Virus record (IMG/VR): IMGVR_UViG_3300042010_000036
Location: 1-42,846 of that record
Strand: one strand, 5' to 3'
Origin: a virus
Length of the DNA stretch: 42,846 nt
The notes under the pieces are model-generated. The model saw only the letters and a list, made by a program, of their open reading frames with translations, had not been told where the DNA came from and made no database searches. Positions 842-42,846 of this stretch are shown one piece after another. Each line of letters opens with the position of its first letter. Positions within the stretch are counted from its first letter, which is position 1. The position numbers were made by a program, and so were the translations under genes.

Positions 842-1771
842 ATGGCCGGCGACTGGATCAAAATGCGCACCGGTCTAGCCAATGATCCTTCGGTAATAGC
901 GATGGCGTGCACCCTCGATGTTGGAGAGTTTGAGGTCGTTGGGATGCTCCATCATCTGTGGTCATGGGCCGATGCTCAGTCACGCGATGGTCACGCTGCT
1001 GGCGTGACAAAAAAGTGGGTTGACCGTTACGTGCACCGTGACGGGTTTGCAGAATCGATGTGCGCAGCTGGTTGGTTGGTGATCGACGAAACAGGAATCG
1101 AATTTCCAAACTTCGAGCGCCATAACGGGAAACCCGCGAAAGATCGGGCACTTGCAGGCGAAAGGCAAAGGAAAAAGCGCGAAAATGTCACGCAAACCGT
1201 CACGGATATGTCACGCAACGAACGTGACGAACGCGTGACCAGAGAAGAGAAGAGAAGAGAAGAGAATATAGATCAAAAGAAACCCCCTACCCCCAGGACG
1301 AAAAAACCGAAGTCGCCGCCGGAGGAATTAGAACTCCCAAGCTGGCTGCCAAAACAGGAGTGGGCTGATTACGTTGAAATGCGACGGACGAAAAAGAAAC
1401 CTGTTTCACCGGCCATCGCGGCCAGAGTGATCAAGAAACTCGAAGACATGGCACTTGCCGGCCATAGCGTCAAAGCAGCATTGGAAAACTCAATCGTCAA
1501 CTGCTGGACCGACATTTACGAACCGAAGGTAGATTTCAATGGATCAGGAACCAACACCGGAGCAAATCGCCAGAGCCGCCCTAGCCTCGTTGAGCAGGTC
1601 AAGCAACGTGGCGCCGAGCTCCAAGCTGAGCGGGGCAGAGAAGCGGGATGCGGATTTGAGAGCCCTGCCGAACTATGGCCAGCCGGAATGGAAGCGCCTG
1701 GAATCGACTGGGACGGAGAGTTCTCCCGCGTCGACGACTCTGATGGTTCGCTTGTGGGAGCTAATGACTGA
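842..1771 (+). CDS. Replication initiator, lambda O-like
   Basis: This is a 309-residue protein beginning MAGDWIKMRTGLANDPSV. The N-terminal ~100 residues (GEFEVVGMLHHLWSWADAQS, then VTKKWVDRYV, WLVIDETGIEFPNF) match the winged-helix origin-binding domain of phage replication initiators (O / replisome-organizer type). A highly charged linker follows (residues ~115-160, rich in R, E, K and P), then a C-terminal part that would contact the P-like loader. The gene contains repeated GTCACG/CGTGAC words and a purine tract (979-1282), as expected if the origin lies inside its own initiator gene. The 3' end overlaps the next gene. The start at 842 is preferred over an in-frame GTG-type start at 776, which would overlap the previous gene. 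Confidence 0.75.
   Translation: MAGDWIKMRTGLANDPSVIAMACTLDVGEFEVVGMLHHLWSWADAQSRDGHAAGVTKKWVDRYVHRDGFAESMCAAGWLVIDETGIEFPNFERHNGKPAKDRALAGERQRKKRENVTQTVTDMSRNERDERVTREEKRREENIDQKKPPTPRTKKPKSPPEELELPSWLPKQEWADYVEMRRTKKKPVSPAIAARVIKKLEDMALAGHSVKAALENSIVNCWTDIYEPKVDFNGSGTNTGANRQSRPSLVEQVKQRGAELQAERGREAGCGFESPAELWPAGMEAPGIDWDGEFSRVDDSDGSLVGAND
979..1282. other. Candidate replication origin: nine iteron-like repeats plus purine tract
   Basis: The word GTCACG or its complement CGTGAC occurs nine times: 979, 990, 1003(c), 1037(c), 1187, 1199, 1210, 1223(c), 1234(c). Aligned copies extend to a loose consensus GTCACGCNA. The last five lie within 53 bases and are followed directly by a purine-only strand from 1241 (five AGAGA units) leading into an A+T-rich segment. 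Lambda's origin has the same plan: iterons inside gene O followed by an A+T-rich, strand-asymmetric region. The function is inferred from this architecture. Confidence 0.6.
1241..1265 (+). repeat. Pentanucleotide tandem repeat, five AGAGA units
   Basis: Five perfect AGAGA units encode part of the charged linker of the O-like protein (REEKRREEN). Because the unit is five bases, gain or loss of one unit would shift the frame. It also forms the start of the purine tract next to the iteron cluster. Confidence 0.85.
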
Positions 1772-2357
1772 GCTGTACGGCCACAAGTGGACCAGTGTTC
1801 ACGGTCTGGCTGATGAGTCTGGGAACTGGGGGAAGATTTTCAGCGGAGTGTCCGGGCTCCAGCTTGCTAAGGGTATTCGCCAATGGACCTCGCAGCCAGG
1901 TGATCTAGCAGCGTGGCCGCCTGGGGCTCCAGAGCTGCGCAACATGTGTCTGGATGACAGCAGCTCGCTCAAGATTCCAGACGTTGCCAGCGCATGGCGT
2001 GAAGCGGTGGAGGCCAGTACTGACCCAACGAAGTGGAAGTTCAGTCACCCGATCGTGCAGGAGGCTGCAAAACTCACGGATTGGTACAGCATCCGCACTG
2101 GCACGCCGAAGGCTGAGACGGTACAGAATCGCTTTGGCAAGCGATACGCAGAGCTGACAGCAAAGCTCCAGCGTGGCGAGCCTCTTGTTGAAGGTCAGAA
2201 GTTGCTGTGCCAGGAAGCCGCACTGGATGAGATCCAGAAGTCGGATCAGGTCAACGAAGCGCTGATCAAGCAGAGAGTCAGGGATCAGGGGTTGGCGAAC
2301 AAATCAACGGAAGAACTGCGGGCCGAGTTGCTCGCCAAGATGGGAGTCAAGCGATGA
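1539..2357 (+). CDS. Helicase loader, lambda P-like
   Basis: Up to 272 residues. The central region (MVRLWELMTELYGHKWTSV, then GNWGKIFSGVSGLQLAKGI, then AWPPGAPELRNMC) matches the conserved part of phage P-type replication proteins, which deliver the host DnaB helicase to the initiator-bound origin. The rest is helical and charged. It lies directly after the O-like gene, the usual pairing. The start is uncertain: ATG 1539 gives a 233-base overlap with the O-like gene, while ATG 1764 (GGGAG just upstream) would overlap by 8 bases and remove 75 residues. The N-terminal extension MDQEPTPEQIARAALASL looks protein-like, so I keep the longer form. Confidence 0.7.
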   Translation: MDQEPTPEQIARAALASLSRSSNVAPSSKLSGAEKRDADLRALPNYGQPEWKRLESTGTESSPASTTLMVRLWELMTELYGHKWTSVHGLADESGNWGKIFSGVSGLQLAKGIRQWTSQPGDLAAWPPGAPELRNMCLDDSSSLKIPDVASAWREAVEASTDPTKWKFSHPIVQEAAKLTDWYSIRTGTPKAETVQNRFGKRYAELTAKLQRGEPLVEGQKLLCQEAALDEIQKSDQVNEALIKQRVRDQGLANKSTEELRAELLAKMGVKR

Positions 2358-7472: not shown

Positions 7473-10400
7473 TTAGTCTTTCTTTGGTGGTGGGCCGAAT
7501 AATACAGATTTGGCAATGGTGAAGGCGTCGCTCTCCATTTCGCCCTCGTTCACTTGGAAGAACGTGCGGGTTGCCCGGTTGATCTGCGATGAAGGCAGGC
7601 CGATCAGCATACCGGTCGCCGTGGTCATGTTGGTTACCAGGGCTTCGGTCTTGGTGGAATTGGTCGCCTTGATCAGCGCGTCAATGCCTCCACCGATTGG
7701 CGAGGCGCCACCATAGCCGAAGTCGCTGAAGAAGCCCTGGGCAGCATCACGCGCTAGAGGCACACCATTCGTAACGCTCAGCAGCGTCTGGATGGCGATG
7801 TACTCGGGCCAGGTGTCACCCATTTTGTCCTTGTCACGGTCGTCATCGTCGGGCAATGCGCCCTTGATCGCGCCAGCCAGGATTGCCGGGATGATGTTCA
7901 GGTACACAAAGCGCTCCAGAGCCACCAGTGTGCCCTGCACGTCTTTCTCCTTGATCGCCTGCGTGCCGCTGCGTGCGATGTCGACGTTCCGGTTCCACAG
8001 CAGCGAGGCGTAGCCGTAGACCAGCAGGAAGAAGCGGGCCAGCTCGTTATGCTGGATAGGTGCCAGGTCTTTGGCCCCGCCAGCCATCTGCGTGAGGCGC
8101 ACGGCACGATCTGCCGCGTCAATCGCATCCTTGCCGCCGTTGCCAGAGTTCACGCCGCCTTCGGCCTCATAGGCGCCCATCCACACCGGTGTATCAACCA
8201 CGCTCTGCATCGTTGCCATTGGAACAAAGGCCCAGCGCTTGATGGCATCGTGCGCGTTCTTCACGTCGTTGAATGCTGTTCCAATACGGCCTTCGCCCAC
8301 ACGGATGATCCGATTGGTTGCCTCTCGGATCGATGGGTCAAGGTTGATCGATCGGTTGCGCATTTCCCCAGACAGGCTCAGGACTTCAGCCCGGGTGGCG
8401 ATCGGGTTCATCGCGAACTTGGCCACGGCACGCATGTAGTGCTTGCGCTGGCCCTTCTGTGCGAAATACTCCAGCGCCTGCGATGCGCCGCCGATCTGGT
8501 TGAACATGGTGGTGACGCTGTAGCCCATCCATGCGATGGCGGCGTTACCGCGCAGGGCGTTCATGGTGCGTCGGAAGATGCCAACACCCTTGGCGCTGCC
8601 CGGCGACAGGTCGTTGGTAATCCCATCGAGAATGTTGATGAATTGCTGAGCCTGGAAGCGGCCCATGCGTTCGTTCATCACCTGGCGCACGGTCGGTGCG
8701 GTGATCAGTTTGCGTGCGTCTGCAATGGCCACGCGGTGCGTAAGGTCGTGAATCACGCCGCTCAGGTGGCTGGCGATAACGGTGACGTCGAGCACGACTG
8801 GTGCCGCGAAGCCGTCAACCCGTGCCTTGGTGTGGCCGCGCGGAGTGGTTGCCCTGGCGCCGCCCTGCTCATTGAGCGGTGACAGCTCGCCCAGATTGGC
8901 CTGGACCTTGGCGAATTCAGGCGACAGGAAGTCGTAGACCAGCGGCCAGTAGGCGCCCTGGACAACGCCGAACTGGGTCTGGACCTGCAGGCCTTCGACC
9001 TTCTCGGGGGCAATGCCGTTTACCTGCTTCTCGAGCGCAACGATGTCAGGCCACAGAGAATTGACGATCTCCCATAGGGTGGTCACGTAGCGCCAATCTT
9101 CCTCACGCATATGACTCAGGATCTCGGCGTGGGCCGCATCGGTCCAGCCGTTTCCGTCGAGCATCTTCTTCAGGTTTCCGGCGTTACCGCTGTTCAGCGC
9201 TACAGCCAGGATGCCGTTGTAGTCGATGGACTTGCCGAGGTTGTTGATCTTCACCTTCTGCCCGGCGCGCGATCCAGCTGCGGCAAACCAAGCATCTGTT
9301 GCTGTCAGTATCTTCTCGGTGATTTCGCGGTTCAGATCGTCGCGACGAGCCTGGGCGTCGGCCAGTGGCTGCCACCAGATCTGCGACCATGCGCCGTTCG
9401 GGTCGCCACCGTCGGCCTGGTCAATGATCTGCTCCAGCTTCATCAGAGAGCTGTTGGCTTCGGACAGCCAATCGCCCATCGCTTCCGGCAGCGTGCGCAT
9501 GGAATCGTTCAGCGGCAGCGGCTTGCCTTTGTTCAGGTTGGTGACCATCGCCTGAATCAGCAGTTCCTGGGCTTCCTTCTGGTCCTTGATTCGCTTGTTG
9601 GCCTGCAACTTTCCCTTCAGTCCGGCCAGGTGGTTCAGGTGCGCAACGAAGTCGTCCAGCTCCTGCAGCTGCGCCAGGCTCAGTTCCTTGTAGTTGGTCT
9701 TGCCCATGGTGTTCAGGATGAACTCAGGCACGTATGGGTCGTTACCGGCCGCCACCTGGTCGTTGTACCACTGGCCGAACGACTTTGCCTTGTCCAGCTG
9801 GCGCAGGCTGACGGTGCGGAACTCATACTGCTCCATGACCGCATCTATCTGGTCAAGGTAGTCGCCGCCGGCTTTGCCAATGCGCTGGCGTTTCTTGGTG
9901 TTGTTGTAGCCGTTCAGACGATCGGTGATGGTTTCGACCTCGGCCCTGGCCTTGGACGCTTCACGGTACAGGTAGAAGTTCAGCAGCTGGCGCTGCTTTG
10001 CTTCATAGGCTGCGTCAAGGTCGCCTTTGGTGAATGCCTCGAACGCTTGGCGGGATGCCTTCGCTTCGGCGCGCTGGTACTCGATCGGCTGGATATCGCG
10101 CACCTTGCGTTCGCTCATCACCCGGGCGGCCGCTTCCTTCAGGATCTGCTGGCTGGTGACGTTCTTGCGGTTTCCGACTTGAGCCAGGCGGCGCAGCTCC
10201 TTGCCCAGCACTTCAGCGCGGCGCTCGTTGTGCACGGCGTCCATAGCGCGCTCGGCGATCTCACCGGTTTGTTTCGGGCCGTGGCGCTCTTCCATGCGGC
10301 GCAAGGCTTCTGCCTCGATCACGGCCTTGCGTGGTTGCGCGCCCATCATGGCCTTAACCATGTCGTCGCCAGATTCAAACCCGAGGATGTTGGCGGCCAA

Positions 10401-13400
10401 GTCCAGCGACAGGCCGGTCTTGCTGTGCATGAATGCCAGCTTCTGCGTGCTGGGCTTGCCGTAGCGGTCTGCCAACTCGGCGCTGTTCAGCTTGAATTCA
10501 CCGGCGCTGCCGTTTGGATTCTTGCCGCTGCGCAGGGCGTTGCGTGCCACATATTCAGGCTGAAGGTCGACTTCCTCGGACACTTCCAAGCGGATGTTGG
10601 CCAGCTGCTCGTTCCACCACTTCGACTGACGGCGCGTTTCTTCCCGGGTGATCTGCTCTTCCACACTGTCACGGGCGTCGGTGTGCGCCAGTTCGATGCT
10701 GTTCTGGTATTGGGCGAACTCGGTTTCGGTCATGCCGGCCGCTTCAGCATCCTTGAACAGCGGCAGGGCGGCGGATACACGCTCAGCGTCCTGAATCTGA
10801 TCATCGCTGGCAACGATCCGGTCAAACACCTTGCGCACGTCGTCGTTCAGCGCCACGTTCAGGCGGCTGAGGTGCTTGTAGATGGCGAGCATCCAGCGCT
10901 TGAAGCGGGCGAATGCGCCGTTAAGCTCAGGCGCCGGGGCTTTGCCTTCGGCCAGGTACGATTCGAAGCCGCGGGCAAACTGCTCATGCTGCTCGGTGGT
11001 CAGTGCTGCATCACCTTCGGCGCCAACCCAATCGCGGATCGCCTTCACGTCGTCCTTGATCTGCTGCGGTGCGTCCTTGGCCTGGGCCAGATCCTGAATC
11101 ACCTCCAGATAGTAGTGCCCCAGTTCATGCACCAGCGTCGACAGGTCGCGCTTGTCGCTCAGCGTGATGTTGAACTTGCGGTTCGATTGGCCGCGCGGGC
11201 TGAAGCTGATGTAACCCCTGGCATCGTCATCATTGCCGCCCTGTTCCAGCTGCTGCACGTCGCCGGCTTCAGCTTCTTGCGGGTTGCGCAGGATGGCCAG
11301 CGCTTCCTGATCGCTCAGGTCGGACAGGTTTACGCCAAGGCGGTCGAAGTACTCCTGCAACTGGTTGAGGGTGTCGGCGGTGTCGGCCTTGTTCGGGTTC
11401 TCCTGCTCGGCGCTATAGCGTGGATTGCCCGCCATTTCATCGCGTACCGCGTCGACGATCAGCTGCGGGGTCACGTCTTCACGTTTCACGCCGGGGAAGT
11501 AGCCTCGCTCCCATGCATTCATCGCCGCTTCATCGAGGCTCATGCCGCCTTCTTTGCGGGTCAGGCGGTTGCGCCCCACCTTGCCCACGTCGGTATCCAG
11601 TGCGGCAAGTTCGCCGCCGGCATCATTCACGCCGCCGGCATCGCGCAGGTACTCGCCCAGCGACTTACCGAAGATGTCGCCGGCCTGCGGGATGTCACCG
11701 GCGCGCAGGCGCTGAATCATAAGGGTAGCGTCATCAACGGTAACGCGGCGCAAGTCCTCTGGCGCCTTGTTGCGGATGTCCAAGGGGAACTGCTGGTCCA
11801 GCTGATCCAGGCCCAGCGCGTTACGCTCTGCCAGGTTGTTCAACACGGACGAATGCAAGGCCGCGTATTGCTCAGCATCGGCGCGGCGGAAGCCTGCTTG
11901 CACCAGTTGCCCGACGAAGTCCTGTTGCGCCTGTGCGCGCACGTCCGGGCCTTTGCGGAACTCTTCGGCCAGATTGGTCAGCTGTTCTTCTTGCTGGTCG
12001 CTCCAGGCTTGTGCGTCCTCGGCACTGAAGTTGCCAGCGCTGGTGCGAATGCTTTTCGACAGCTGTTCATCGAAGTCGGCCAGGTAGGTAAGGTAGTCGG
12101 CACCCTTCATGGCCACGTTCCCGCCGCGCACCAGGGCATCGCCGAACTGCTCGGTCAGGCCTGGTACTTGCGCCAGTATCGCCGGAAGATCGATGGCGCC
12201 GCTCTGATTCAGGCGCTGCAACTCTTCAGCAGGAATCCACAGGGTTTCCAGCGGAGTGTCGGCCAACTGTTGGGTGGCGATCTGGTTGAAAGTACCCGGG
12301 TCGAGTTTGCGCGTCTCGCTTTCGACTGAAGCCGCTGCCGCTGCGCTCAGTGACTGCTGGCCGACGCGAGCCTGACGCGACTTCGACAGGCCATCAGCCA
12401 GAGTGGTGAACATGCGCTTGCCACCGAACGCCATCACGTCAGCGCTCGATCCCAGCCCCCCCGCGATGCCTTCCAGCAGCACTTCGCCGGCGTCCACCTT
12501 GCCTTCTGCCGCAAGCTGCCCAGCGGCCTCGCCAGCAGCCTCGCTGAGCCCCTGCACTGGGAACTGAACAGCCAGGTTCGCCAGTTCGCGCTGTGTTTCG
12601 CTCAGCGGCCGGCCTGCAATGCGAGTTGGCGCCAGCAGTTTGCCGGCGAACATCATGCCAAGCGCATCAACGGCGGTGGTGCCGGCTGCCTTCAGTGCCG
12701 CCTTATCGCTGGCGGTCTTCATCAGTTCATCGTCTTGCAGCGCCTTCATCACTGCGGCAGGGTCGTTGAAGTCCACGCCGGCTTCGCGGATCACGTCCGC
12801 CAGCTTCACGTCGAACTCGGTGCCGAAGTTGATCGCCGAGGCCAGCGGGATGCCGCCGACAGCGCCAGCCAGCAATGCAGGGGCCGAAGAAACGGCTGCA
12901 CCAAGTGCGGTGCGCCCGGCAAACCCAGGCGTCAGCGCTTCCAACGTGGCATCGAAGCTGCTCATGCCTTCGCCGGTGTCGATCACTTGGCGCTCCAGTC
13001 CGCCGAGTGGGATACCGATCTGATTGCTGGTCTGCAGTTGTTGGATCTCGCGCGCAGCCGGGTCGACCGGCGCCGATTCCAGTTCTTTCTGCTGCTCGCC
13101 CACGCGACTGATGAACTCGCCCTGCTGGCTGTTCAGGTTTTCACGCATGACCTGGCGCTGCTCTGGCGTGCTTCGCAAGTATTCACCGGCAAAACCAGTC
13201 GGGCCGCCAGTCTCGAGGAATGGTTGCTCTCCGGCCGTGGTGGCGCGGGCAATCTCTGCGTCAACCGCGTCGAAGCTGGCGCCAATGCGCTGAAGGTCGC
13301 GCGCATCAGAAAGGTTCGTGCCTTGCGCCTGGCTCGTCCACTGCTGCTGGATCGCGCCCAGCATCTTCTCGCCTAGGCTCTGCTCGTTGAATCGGGTATC

Positions 13401-13772
13401 ACTTGCGGCGCCCTCGATGCGGGTGAGTGCGTCAAGGTCGTTCTGTGCCACTGCCGCCAGGTTGCCGTCACGCAGGGCGTTGGCGGTCTTGCGCGAAGTG
13501 TCGTAGATCGCGGCGTATTTGTTGCCCTTCTCCAGTTCGGCCATGCGTTCGCGCTGTTCGTACAGCGTTGCGGCCGGAATTCCGCTCATGCGGGCAGTGG
13601 CATTGGCCTTGCCGTACTCTGCCGGGGCGATGGTGGCCACAGTCTTCAGGCTGTTGACGAAGTCGGTTCGCTCATCGTCGAACGAATCGCGGATCGCGGT
13701 AGTCAGCGGCGTAGGTGTCGGCTGCTGGACGGTGTCGTCTACCGGTGCAAGTAGCGGGACTTCAAGGGTCAT
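7473..13772 (-). CDS. Giant internal virion (DNA-ejection) protein with HExxH motif
   Basis: This encodes 2099 residues, the largest gene, coupled by ATGA to the transglycosylase gene upstream. The composition is helical and Q/A-rich, like T7 gp16 and other ejection proteins that cross the envelope ahead of DNA. A hydrophobic Gly/Ala stretch lies near residues 290-315 (AAVSSAPALLAGAVGGIPLA). Residues 882-886 are HELGH in the context LSTLVHELGHYYLE, a zinc-metallopeptidase-type motif. The C-terminal third (SGVIHDLTHRVAIADARKLI, MNALRGNAAIAWMGYSV, then LERFVYLNIIPAILAGAIKG) resembles the C-terminal domain of large polyvalent phage proteins. It is probably packaged in the head and injected; protease activity is inferred from the motif alone. 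Confidence 0.8.
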   Translation of the reverse strand: MTLEVPLLAPVDDTVQQPTPTPLTTAIRDSFDDERTDFVNSLKTVATIAPAEYGKANATARMSGIPAATLYEQRERMAELEKGNKYAAIYDTSRKTANALRDGNLAAVAQNDLDALTRIEGAASDTRFNEQSLGEKMLGAIQQQWTSQAQGTNLSDARDLQRIGASFDAVDAEIARATTAGEQPFLETGGPTGFAGEYLRSTPEQRQVMRENLNSQQGEFISRVGEQQKELESAPVDPAAREIQQLQTSNQIGIPLGGLERQVIDTGEGMSSFDATLEALTPGFAGRTALGAAVSSAPALLAGAVGGIPLASAINFGTEFDVKLADVIREAGVDFNDPAAVMKALQDDELMKTASDKAALKAAGTTAVDALGMMFAGKLLAPTRIAGRPLSETQRELANLAVQFPVQGLSEAAGEAAGQLAAEGKVDAGEVLLEGIAGGLGSSADVMAFGGKRMFTTLADGLSKSRQARVGQQSLSAAAAASVESETRKLDPGTFNQIATQQLADTPLETLWIPAEELQRLNQSGAIDLPAILAQVPGLTEQFGDALVRGGNVAMKGADYLTYLADFDEQLSKSIRTSAGNFSAEDAQAWSDQQEEQLTNLAEEFRKGPDVRAQAQQDFVGQLVQAGFRRADAEQYAALHSSVLNNLAERNALGLDQLDQQFPLDIRNKAPEDLRRVTVDDATLMIQRLRAGDIPQAGDIFGKSLGEYLRDAGGVNDAGGELAALDTDVGKVGRNRLTRKEGGMSLDEAAMNAWERGYFPGVKREDVTPQLIVDAVRDEMAGNPRYSAEQENPNKADTADTLNQLQEYFDRLGVNLSDLSDQEALAILRNPQEAEAGDVQQLEQGGNDDDARGYISFSPRGQSNRKFNITLSDKRDLSTLVHELGHYYLEVIQDLAQAKDAPQQIKDDVKAIRDWVGAEGDAALTTEQHEQFARGFESYLAEGKAPAPELNGAFARFKRWMLAIYKHLSRLNVALNDDVRKVFDRIVASDDQIQDAERVSAALPLFKDAEAAGMTETEFAQYQNSIELAHTDARDSVEEQITREETRRQSKWWNEQLANIRLEVSEEVDLQPEYVARNALRSGKNPNGSAGEFKLNSAELADRYGKPSTQKLAFMHSKTGLSLDLAANILGFESGDDMVKAMMGAQPRKAVIEAEALRRMEERHGPKQTGEIAERAMDAVHNERRAEVLGKELRRLAQVGNRKNVTSQQILKEAAARVMSERKVRDIQPIEYQRAEAKASRQAFEAFTKGDLDAAYEAKQRQLLNFYLYREASKARAEVETITDRLNGYNNTKKRQRIGKAGGDYLDQIDAVMEQYEFRTVSLRQLDKAKSFGQWYNDQVAAGNDPYVPEFILNTMGKTNYKELSLAQLQELDDFVAHLNHLAGLKGKLQANKRIKDQKEAQELLIQAMVTNLNKGKPLPLNDSMRTLPEAMGDWLSEANSSLMKLEQIIDQADGGDPNGAWSQIWWQPLADAQARRDDLNREITEKILTATDAWFAAAGSRAGQKVKINNLGKSIDYNGILAVALNSGNAGNLKKMLDGNGWTDAAHAEILSHMREEDWRYVTTLWEIVNSLWPDIVALEKQVNGIAPEKVEGLQVQTQFGVVQGAYWPLVYDFLSPEFAKVQANLGELSPLNEQGGARATTPRGHTKARVDGFAAPVVLDVTVIASHLSGVIHDLTHRVAIADARKLITAPTVRQVMNERMGRFQAQQFINILDGITNDLSPGSAKGVGIFRRTMNALRGNAAIAWMGYSVTTMFNQIGGASQALEYFAQKGQRKHYMRAVAKFAMNPIATRAEVLSLSGEMRNRSINLDPSIREATNRIIRVGEGRIGTAFNDVKNAHDAIKRWAFVPMATMQSVVDTPVWMGAYEAEGGVNSGNGGKDAIDAADRAVRLTQMAGGAKDLAPIQHNELARFFLLVYGYASLLWNRNVDIARSGTQAIKEKDVQGTLVALERFVYLNIIPAILAGAIKGALPDDDDRDKDKMGDTWPEYIAIQTLLSVTNGVPLARDAAQGFFSDFGYGGASPIGGGIDALIKATNSTKTEALVTNMTTATGMLIGLPSSQINRATRTFFQVNEGEMESDAFTIAKSVLFGPPPKKD

Positions 13773-15868
13773 TGTGCTTTAACTCCAAGTTCGGAAATGC
13801 CCTGAACATACAGGCCGACGATGTTCTCTGCGCTGGCTGGTTCGCCGCGGGCGCGCAGGGTGCGGACAATCTTCGCACGGTCGCCTGCCGGGATGTCGTC
13901 GAGGCCGATATCCTTGGCTTTCAGGTAGGCGTTCTGCAGCTGCTCAGGCGCCACATTCCACAGCTGCTCGGTGGTTTCGCTGAATACGCCAGTGCCACGC
14001 AGGCGCACATCAATCAGCAGCGTGTTGGCGATGTCGCTGGATTCCTTGGCGGTCGGCTGGCGCCCATTGGACAGGAAGAAAGCATCTTTCTGGCTCTGGT
14101 AGGAGGCGCGGAACTTCTCCTGCGCGGCCAGGTTCTGCGGAGTTGTGGCCTTTTGGCTGGTCCCAGTGAGAATGCCAGCCTGTTGCATGACCAGCGTCAG
14201 CTGATCATTCTCGGCCTTGGTGGCGCGTTGGTCGCCATAATCGCCTTGCACGGCCTTCTGCCATGAACTCTTGATGGTGTTGTAATCGGCATCGTTCAGG
14301 TATGGCCGGATGTCGCGCTGCAGGCTCAGTTCACCGAACTGCGGGCCAGGCATAGACAGGAACTCGCGCAGCTTGCTCTCGTCGGTGGTCGGCTCGGTGC
14401 CTTTGCGCCGGTGTTCGTCCAACTTCTGCAGCTTCACGCGCTCTTCTGCGCCGATCGTAATCAGAACCTGAGGCGGGATTGCGTTGTATCCATCCTCCAG
14501 CGCGATGTTGGCGGCTGTTTCGAAGTTGGCTTTGGCCGTGAGCTGGTCGGCTTTGTTCAGGTCGTCGATGCGGTCCATCGCATACTTGCGCGTCTCCGGA
14601 TCTTTGATGGCTTGTGCGGCAGTGGTGGCGGCGGCAAGCTTGCTGGTGGCAGTGGATGGCGCCAGCTGGCTGACGATCTTCCCGGTGTAGTTGCGCGTTT
14701 CCTTGAATGGGATGGCGTCAATCCAGGCCTGGTTGCTGATCTCGTCGGTACGTGGGTCGCCATTCTCCTTGATCCACTTGTCAACGCTGCCCGGGCCGGC
14801 GTTGTACGCAGCGACGGCCAGGGTCGAGTTGCCACCGTAGCGGCCCAGCATCTTGTTCAGGTAGGCGTTGCCCAGTGCCATGTTGTAGTTTGGATCAGCG
14901 GTCAGGCGCTCAAGGCTGAATGTAACCTTTAACTCCTTTGCCATTTCTTCTGCGGTAGCAGGCATCAACTGCATAAGGCCCAAAGCACCTTTCGGCGAAA
15001 CGGCTGTTGGGTCGCCGCCAGTCTCTGCCTGAATAATCAGATTGCTCAGGCCGTTGATTCCTACGGTCGCGGCGTTGTAGGCAGACTCGCCGATCTGGCT
15101 GCCAAGCTGCTGGCGAACGCTGGTGCCAAGCAGTTTGGTAACCCGGGCCTGATCGTCGACGGTCATGCCATCGTAGGATTTTGCGTAGTAGCGCTGGGCT
15201 GCGATCGGGTCGTTCTGCATCAGGCGCTGGATCACGGCGGTGTTGATGCCGCTGTTGTACTTCAGCACCTTTTCCTGAGTCAGTTCAGGCGCCTCGCCGT
15301 TGCGCTCGCCCTGCATGGCGATCACTCGAGTGCCTTTGTTCTGGTAGAAAGCCACCTGCTGCGGGTCGTCGTAATACGCCACAGCGCTTTCTGTCGCTGC
15401 GTTAAGGGTGGCGTCTTCGGCCTCTTTGTAGAAAACCTGACGCTCGCCGAACTCGTAGCGATTCAGCTGACCATTGAAGCGTTCAGCCTGGCTCTTGGCG
15501 ATCTGGTTGAACCGCTGCCGCTGACGGTCGTTGGTCAAGCCGTTGCTGATGTTGTCGACCTGCTGCTGAAACTGCGGCAGCGTCTGGTTCGTGATGTCGA
15601 TAGCGTTCTTGCCCTTGCGGGTGTAAACGCCGTTTTCCGGGTTGAATAGCGTGTCAGTCTGCCATTTGCTCAGGCTGCTTTCGGCTTCCATCAGTGCGGC
15701 AGTGTCGGCATCGTCCTGGGTCTTCTGCCAGATCTGCGTAGCCGCCTGCGTCAGAGGCTTGGCCAGGCCTGCGCCAAGGGTGTCCTCCTGGACGACATCA
15801 ACCTGGGGCACGGACATAGGTCGTGTGCGCACGCCGGGGCTGTTGAGCGTTGGAATTTGTACGGCCAT
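13769..15868 (-). CDS. Internal virion protein with lytic transglycosylase domain
   Basis: This encodes 699 residues. Residues ~275-400 are an SLT-type lytic transglycosylase: catalytic Glu282 in LIIQAETGGDP, then SPKGALGLMQLMPAT and AVAAYNAGPGSVDKWI, in the normal spacing. The N-terminal part is helical (internal virion protein-like), and the C-terminal 300 residues are also helical with no recognised enzyme domain. In podoviruses such proteins open the peptidoglycan during DNA ejection. It lies between two other ejection proteins and is coupled to the giant protein downstream. Confidence 0.9.
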   Translation of the reverse strand: MAVQIPTLNSPGVRTRPMSVPQVDVVQEDTLGAGLAKPLTQAATQIWQKTQDDADTAALMEAESSLSKWQTDTLFNPENGVYTRKGKNAIDITNQTLPQFQQQVDNISNGLTNDRQRQRFNQIAKSQAERFNGQLNRYEFGERQVFYKEAEDATLNAATESAVAYYDDPQQVAFYQNKGTRVIAMQGERNGEAPELTQEKVLKYNSGINTAVIQRLMQNDPIAAQRYYAKSYDGMTVDDQARVTKLLGTSVRQQLGSQIGESAYNAATVGINGLSNLIIQAETGGDPTAVSPKGALGLMQLMPATAEEMAKELKVTFSLERLTADPNYNMALGNAYLNKMLGRYGGNSTLAVAAYNAGPGSVDKWIKENGDPRTDEISNQAWIDAIPFKETRNYTGKIVSQLAPSTATSKLAAATTAAQAIKDPETRKYAMDRIDDLNKADQLTAKANFETAANIALEDGYNAIPPQVLITIGAEERVKLQKLDEHRRKGTEPTTDESKLREFLSMPGPQFGELSLQRDIRPYLNDADYNTIKSSWQKAVQGDYGDQRATKAENDQLTLVMQQAGILTGTSQKATTPQNLAAQEKFRASYQSQKDAFFLSNGRQPTAKESSDIANTLLIDVRLRGTGVFSETTEQLWNVAPEQLQNAYLKAKDIGLDDIPAGDRAKIVRTLRARGEPASAENIVGLYVQGISELGVKAQ

Positions 15869-42348: not shown

Positions 42349-42846
42349 TCAGGCGACCAGCTTCAGTTCAGGCGGGGCTTTCTTCAGGGCCTGCACCAGT
42401 GCGCGACGAAGCTTGGCTTCAAACTCTTCACGATCCTCGGGCGGCAGTTTGTTGATGGCGGCGCAGATGTCGTGCACCAGGGCGCCGGTCAGAACATCCT
42501 CTTTCGCGACCTGAACGCCAACCAAGGAAGGCACAACCTCGACCTTTGCTCGATTGGCTGCCTTGACCTGGTTAACGGCGTTCCGGATTTCACCCATCGT
42601 CTTGTAGTCGCGGATGTCCAGGCCGAACTTGTACATGTTGCGCAGAGCGCTCAGATAGTTCTTCACCGTCGGCGGGGCGGCTGTCAGGAGTGAGCCGGCT
42701 TTCGGCCTGCCCTTCTCCATCGACCAGCTGTTTTCCGAATAGGCCTTGGCAAACAAAGGCTCTGCAGCCTCAGATGTGAACGCCTTGTGCTTTATCAGCT
42801 GCGCGACGCACTGGGCGCCAAGGCTCTCCTTTTTGCCGTCAAGCTC
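42349..42846 (-). CDS. C-terminal part of the 178-aa protein at repressor position
   Basis: This is the continuation of the gene that begins at 166 (N-terminal part described there); bases 42720-42846 repeat the window start. The C-terminal ~135 residues include TAAPPTVKNYLSALRNMYKF, IRDYKTMGEIRNAVNQVKAA and a helical end (DREEFEAKLRRALVQALKKA). The segment around PPTVKNYLSALRNMY could be a helix-turn-helix-like fold, though this is weak. The gene stands alone, with its own terminator, between two divergent early promoters. That layout is what a phage maintenance regulator would have. The family is not recognised. Confidence 0.75.
   Translation of the reverse strand, partial: ELDGKKESLGAQCVAQLIKHKAFTSEAAEPLFAKAYSENSWSMEKGRPKAGSLLTAAPPTVKNYLSALRNMYKFGLDIRDYKTMGEIRNAVNQVKAANRAKVEVVPSLVGVQVAKEDVLTGALVHDICAAINKLPPEDREEFEAKLRRALVQALKKAPPELKLVA
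42720..42846. repeat. Right copy of 127-bp terminal direct repeat (contig overlap)
   Basis: Identical to 1-127; see the left copy. Removing one copy gives a 42,719-bp circle. Confidence 0.9.

Follow-up and report, generated by a model that had tools for sequence, protein, structure and literature searches.

Results

Organization of the initiator locus

The stretch of DNA analysed here (hereafter the window; 42,846 nucleotides) is the whole virus record IMGVR_UViG_3300042010_000036 and probably represents a complete circularised genome, since positions 1–127 and 42720–42846 form an exact 127-bp terminal direct repeat. Close to its left end, a gene for a small Cro/CI-like helix-turn-helix (HTH) protein (395–595) lies just 5' of a replication initiator gene, which in turn stands upstream of a P-like helicase-loader gene, in the order O-P. 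The features of the locus are the following, with the hexamer GTCACG, on either strand, referred to as the word:

842–1771 (+): O-like replication initiator gene, 309 codons; PHROG 2509 "replication initiation protein", E=3e-59
979–1042: distal word cluster, with GTCACG at 979 (+), 990 (+), 1003 (-) and 1037 (-); spacing 11, 13 and 34
990–1008: 19-bp inverted pair of the distal cluster, GTCACG-N7-CGTGAC
1130–1192 (+): codons of the basic helix (residues 97–117), with the covarying face 101/105/109
1187–1239: proximal word cluster, with GTCACG at 1187 (+), 1199 (+), 1210 (+), 1223 (-) and 1234 (-); spacing 12, 11, 13 and 11; adjoins the purine tract
1210–1228: 19-bp inverted pair of the proximal cluster, GTCACG-N7-CGTGAC
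1241–1266 (+): purine-only (GAGAA)n tract, 26 nt, encoding REEKRREE
1267–1294 (+): AT-rich patch, then two C5 runs (1283–1287 and 1290–1294)
1539–2357 (+): P-like helicase-loader gene; PHROG 109 "P-like helicase loader", E=2e-16

We placed the initiator start at the conserved MAGDWIK, the segment MAGDWIKM being invariant in 75 aligned initiator sequences; a longer start at ATG 776 was set aside. The PHROG 2509 profile covers residues 1–180, and the match to the O-like PHROG 678 (E=2e-26) is limited to residues 92–266. The description of this protein as O-like, made in a first-pass annotation of the DNA, has a sequence match over those residues; sequence does not identify the N-terminal domain as that of lambda O. 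Pfam gave no family for the window initiator and no RepA_N type among the 75 family members; the DnaT-like PF17948 was matched by 11 of the 75 and by the epsilon15 protein, and not by the window initiator. An AlphaFold2 model predicts a winged-helix-like domain (approximately residues 16–94), a helix at residues 97–118 and, beyond a disordered linker, a C-terminal part made up of helices. A profile search of the sequences of solved structures returned no significant match, and a fold search gave no match at E<=0.001, its rows being mostly winged-helix proteins with Z of about 5.

The loader is read from ATG 1539, a later ATG at 1743 being a possible alternative. The O-like and P-like frames overlap by 233 bp (1539–1771), and one relative (L070) conserves both of them; if the start at 1539 is right, the length of this dual-coding stretch is unusual. 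Elsewhere in the window, a minus-strand open frame of 2099 codons (7473–13772) is adjoined by a 699-codon frame (13769–15868) that by eye resembles lytic transglycosylases.

A hexamer array confined to the initiator gene

The word occurs nine times in 261 bp (979–1239, both strands counted), in five of the six combinations of orientation and reading frame. All nine copies reported in the first-pass annotation were found in place, as were their mixed orientations and their separation into two clusters, the gap between which is 144 bp (145 in the earlier count). The distal cluster falls within the codons of the winged-helix domain; the proximal one packs five copies into 53 bp and is followed by a single C (1240) and then, as had been noticed, by purines only.

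Across the window the word is found 29 times, against 24.2 ± 4.2 in shuffled sequences, and is thus not enriched elsewhere. The 20 copies in the remaining genome never exceed two per 261-bp stretch; the outside rate of 0.12 per 261 bp agrees with the random expectation of about 0.13 given earlier, and at this rate the Poisson probability of nine or more copies is 1.5e-14. No 6-mer forms a denser cluster anywhere in the genome, and the whole-window count revealed no second cluster of the word, so that an equal density elsewhere, the finding that would have spoken against an origin, was not observed. Cumulative GC skew, proposed as a further check, has its detrended minimum at 552; it adds little as an origin marker, because the skew tracks gene strand.

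A common half-site grammar among relatives

DNA-level searches of phages (query nt 842–1282) and of plasmids (query nt 842–1771) gave no match, and we therefore traced the array through protein relatives: 67 from bacterial genomes, 80 from viral contigs and eight annotated phage regions. At least 120 further loci were collected with a tract probe alone, and 240 more for a later word-prediction test.

The words differ among the relatives (GTCACG, GTCACA, GTCCGC, GTAACG, GTAGAC, TGTCGC, TCCGAC and others) while their arrangement is unchanged: two forward words 11 bp apart, an inverted word 13 bp further on, a second inverted word after another 11 bp, and then the (GAGAA)n tract. Relative to the start of the tract, the proximal cluster has forward words at -42 and -31 and inverted ones at -18 and -7, positions that are common to the GTCACG, GTCACA and GTCCGC classes and partly to the GTAACG class. 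The inverted pair is spaced by 13 in 48 GTCACG, 8 GTCACA, 107 GTCCGC and 42 GTAACG cases, pairs in the same direction by 11 or 12, and the GTAGAC class uses 12 and 14. Each word class occurs in both orientations and in several reading frames.

The distal cluster retains its inverted pair in the relatives, and the GTCACG and GTCCGC classes share a forward-11-forward-13-inverted unit there. Its position in the open reading frame (ORF) is nt 137–161 in the GTCACG class, 148–161 in the GTAACG class and 54–100 in the GTCCGC class; the offsets of the window (ORF nt 137, 148 and 161) recur in 17–22 of 28 GTCACG-class ORFs. Since the geometry of the clusters is kept while the codons differ, this is strong evidence for a function of the DNA. 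As read from these comparisons, the unit of both clusters is a half-site grammar: a 19-bp inverted pair with a 7-bp spacer, and flanking half-sites 11 bp off. A subfamily with other N-terminal regions (L064, L065, L067, L068 and L195) carries denser, overlapping palindromic arrays, such as GTAACGTTAC.

The array might be bound by the initiator and serve mainly in regulation (autorepression, copy control or handcuffing), the origin lying elsewhere. The distal cluster, being separable from the tract and varying in gene position with the word class, would fit such a role; nevertheless, the genome has no second word cluster, and the proximal cluster keeps a fixed distance from a conserved tract and AT-rich patch, like the lambda origin plan, which leaves a mainly regulatory array very unlikely.

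The signal exceeds what the protein and its codon use require

In 163 non-redundant initiator ORFs (that of the window and those of relatives) we permuted synonymous codons, so that neither the protein nor its codon use changed, and counted the top 6-mer on both strands, all-purine words being excluded. The initiators reached p<=0.05 in 103 of 163 and p<=0.01 in 75 (Fisher 1159, df 326), compared with 6 and 1, respectively, of 153 control ORFs taken at these loci (Fisher 281, df 306), an outcome that equals chance expectation. About a third of the initiator genes fall short of p<=0.05 under this null, which is conservative because an ORF's own codon use already includes its repeats.

Codon bias had been named in the first-pass annotation as a possible explanation of the repeats, and it did not account for them. 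That a biased or repetitive peptide (VT, SR, REEKRREE) and codon preference yield them as a by-product, without any DNA function, would be in keeping with a linker that is low in complexity and in which dipeptides recur. However, codon-preserving shuffling abolishes the repeats, the words lie in many frames and on both strands, and in close homologues one word is swapped for another at the identical place. The tract behaves likewise: among protein-selected genes, arginine in the REEKRREE-like segment is encoded by AGA in 270 of 272 cases, against 171 of 2571 (7%) elsewhere in the same genes, and the tract is read in all three frames (91, 18 and 3 genes). The probability that we would leave to such a by-product is close to nil. 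By comparison among the relatives, word arrays and tract are kept as DNA, independently of the protein code.

The (GAGAA)n tract and its 3' flank

The tract 18-mer AGAGAAGAGAAGAGAAGA, used as the sole probe of viral contigs, retrieved at least 120 loci, and among the matches listed 79 of 120 sit in ORFs with initiator-like beginnings. A control purine 18-mer built on GGAAA, the only other pentamer repeat of two G and three A, gave initiator-type ORFs in 0 of 120 among the matches listed. The exact 15-nt tract is absent from 27 of 125 protein-selected ORFs. Several tract matches outside the family belong to other initiator types (Lin1244_N, Phage_rep_org_N, DUF1376 and PHROG 270/2562); in seven loci with other initiator families (L159, L171, L181, L196, L204, L211 and L234) the GAGAA tract stands mostly behind word arrays of their own.

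Within the family, the AT fraction is approximately 0.6 in the tract and peaks at approximately 0.7 at its end, against a gene mean of 0.44. A C5 run follows within 60 nt of the tract in 37 of 150 ORFs (1.1% of other windows), and a hairpin follows in 20% of ORFs (9.7% in the background). Short perfect hairpins, many with CTGACG or CTAACG loops, were seen just past the tract in L004, L012, L022, L034, L047, L093 and other loci.

The tract is a mirror-symmetric homopurine repeat, and AAGAG satellites were reported to form triplexes in Drosophila (PMC6316130); it could therefore work through a non-B structure, an intramolecular triplex, instead of being read as a sequence or melted easily. The result with GGAAA argues that generic homopurine character is insufficient, and the tract of lambda differs in being A-rich. 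We regard the triplex as unlikely.

The word covaries with a helix of the initiator

Comparing pairs of sequences at equal background identity, we scanned the columns of the initiator for covariation with the word, and after this control columns 109, 101, 128 and 105 ranked highest. Columns 101, 105 and 109 are four apart, lie on one face of the basic helix, and have codons outside the words (the helix codons touch the word at 1187 by their last two codons only), whereas the codons of columns 128, 55, 125 and 132 are in or adjoin words. Residue 105 is Ala, Gly or Ser in 26 of 27 GTCACG genes, Asp or Glu in 63 of 63 GTCCGC genes, Thr in 21 of 25 GTAACG genes and Lys in 7 of 7 GTAGAC genes, and most GTCACA genes have an acidic residue at position 104. 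On a tree computed with the helix and distal-cluster codons left out, there are at least 23 changes of word class; none of the independent tree contrasts, each underpowered alone, is contrary to the association. Covariation with the word also remains, once background is controlled for, at a second set of helix residues, 20, 24 and 31 (about nt 899–934).

Helix rules that had been set before the test named the array word rightly in 49 of 49 further genes with <85% nucleotide identity to the training genes, which do not amount to 49 independent successes, because 47 of them fall in two classes and much of the set is related to the training genes and queries. Four further genes with other helices received no prediction and all carry GTAACG, so that the residue rule is incomplete.

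These comparisons show that the word changes together with one face of helix 97–117 of the initiator itself, which is consistent with recognition by the initiator. A different reader, whether supplied by the host or identical with the small HTH protein encoded just upstream, would have the position of that Cro/CI-like gene in its favour; nevertheless, the covariation with the initiator's helix face and the success of the prediction from this helix make another reader extremely unlikely.

Discussion

Comparison with lambda and other replication systems

In lambda, four direct copies of an inverted 18–19-bp iteron form one cluster (PMC7466680); the iterons lie at nt 348–432 of the O ORF, with an 18-nt purine run at 452. 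The gene offset is similar in the window, with proximal words at ORF nt 345–397 and the tract at 399. Both systems have an intragenic array in the initiator gene, a P-type loader gene downstream, inverted half-sites of approximately 19 bp, and a purine-asymmetric, AT-richer tract directly 3' of the words (26 purines in the window). They differ in the word itself, in the tract ((GAGAA)n instead of A-rich), in the N-terminal domain, and in the arrangement, which in the window is forward-forward-inverted-inverted, in two clusters, each with one full inverted pair and flanking half-sites. Having no four direct iterons, the window is not classed as a lambda-type iteron array; by analogy, its array very likely works like one despite the other arrangement. 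The earlier suggestion of a lambda ori plan with a different word, and without four direct iterons, is supported by gene context and by the conserved spacing.

RepA_N plasmids (pSK41, pTZ2162) combine an N-terminal DNA-binding domain of approximately 120 amino acids, boxes placed centrally in rep, an ori-encoded linker and a separate C-terminal domain (PMC5703833). The window shares the plan of a DNA-binding domain, a central intragenic candidate origin and an ori-encoded linker; in the text covered, no GAGAA tract is mentioned for these plasmids. RepA_N structures rank among the best fold matches, and the winged-helix models of the window resemble 5kbj, 4pql and 4pt7 (Z 4.7–5.4 over 75–79 residues), tied with CRP-type winged helices, and the window protein has no Pfam RepA_N match. 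The Eru replication units of non-lambdoid phages, compared by description only, likewise replace lambda O and P in lambdoid-looking phages, and their published description mentions no iterons, repeats or origin (PMC8044961).

The PHROG 2509-type initiators of epsilon15, SPN1S, phiPSA1 and CP2 and YdaU of the Rac prophage are homologous to the window protein. The anatomy of array plus tract is also found in the epsilon15, phiPSA1, CP2 and PAN70 homologues, and in YdaU a GTAACG array is accompanied by a variant of the purine tract. These homologues differ from the window in the word (GTCCGC or GTAACG in those read) and in the helix residues. Their annotations go no further than replication, primosomal or hypothetical protein, and the records examined mark no array. 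The Rac prophage has an active origin, oriJ (PMC3945230), which, together with the array in its YdaU, supports an origin function in this initiator family by analogy only.

A candidate origin and its putative mechanism

We consider it highly probable, from the sequence evidence, that the array is the replication origin of the phage, placed on the lambda plan inside the gene of its own initiator, whose N-terminal domain is predicted to bind it. The first-pass annotation had proposed an iteron-like origin in the initiator gene, and gene context, shuffle statistics, conserved spacing, covariation and the tract probe all favour it. The N-terminal domain, comprising winged helix and basic helix, would bind the half-sites, with a dimer on each 19-bp inverted pair and further subunits on the half-sites one helical turn (11 bp) off, and both clusters may build one nucleoprotein complex. 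Strand opening would occur at or beside the (GAGAA)n tract and the AT-rich patch, and the C-terminal part of the initiator would, with the P-like loader, recruit the host helicase, as in lambda. Residues 119–169 would be a disordered linker, with a sequence largely dictated by the DNA site encoded there.

A wider proposal is more tentative, and we would put its chances a little short of even. It holds that this is a large initiator family with a recognition code, in which the helix face 101/105/109, along with residues 104 and 112, determines the 6-bp word, and in which the gene encoding that helix must also spell the word in two clusters; since one gene carries both helix and clusters, the specificities of protein and origin would switch together. 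The (GAGAA)n tract, common to these origins and marking other families (Lin1244_N, Phage_rep_org_N and DUF1376), would be read as a sequence in opening or helicase loading.

In the literature covered, which includes few subscription journals, we found no account of the array, nor any of a GAGAA tract at phage origins, and we do not assert priority. Most temperate phages have, to our knowledge, no mapped origin. The word array, the 11/13/11 grammar and the GAGAA tract locate candidate origins by sequence alone in phages and prophages of proteobacteria, among them the epsilon15 group and probably Rac of E. coli. Paired changes of word and helix constitute a natural experiment, in which the specificities of initiator and origin would shift together in one gene. 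This pairing is readable from sequence, because word and one helix face change together in the relatives, and it is testable by single residues and single bases.
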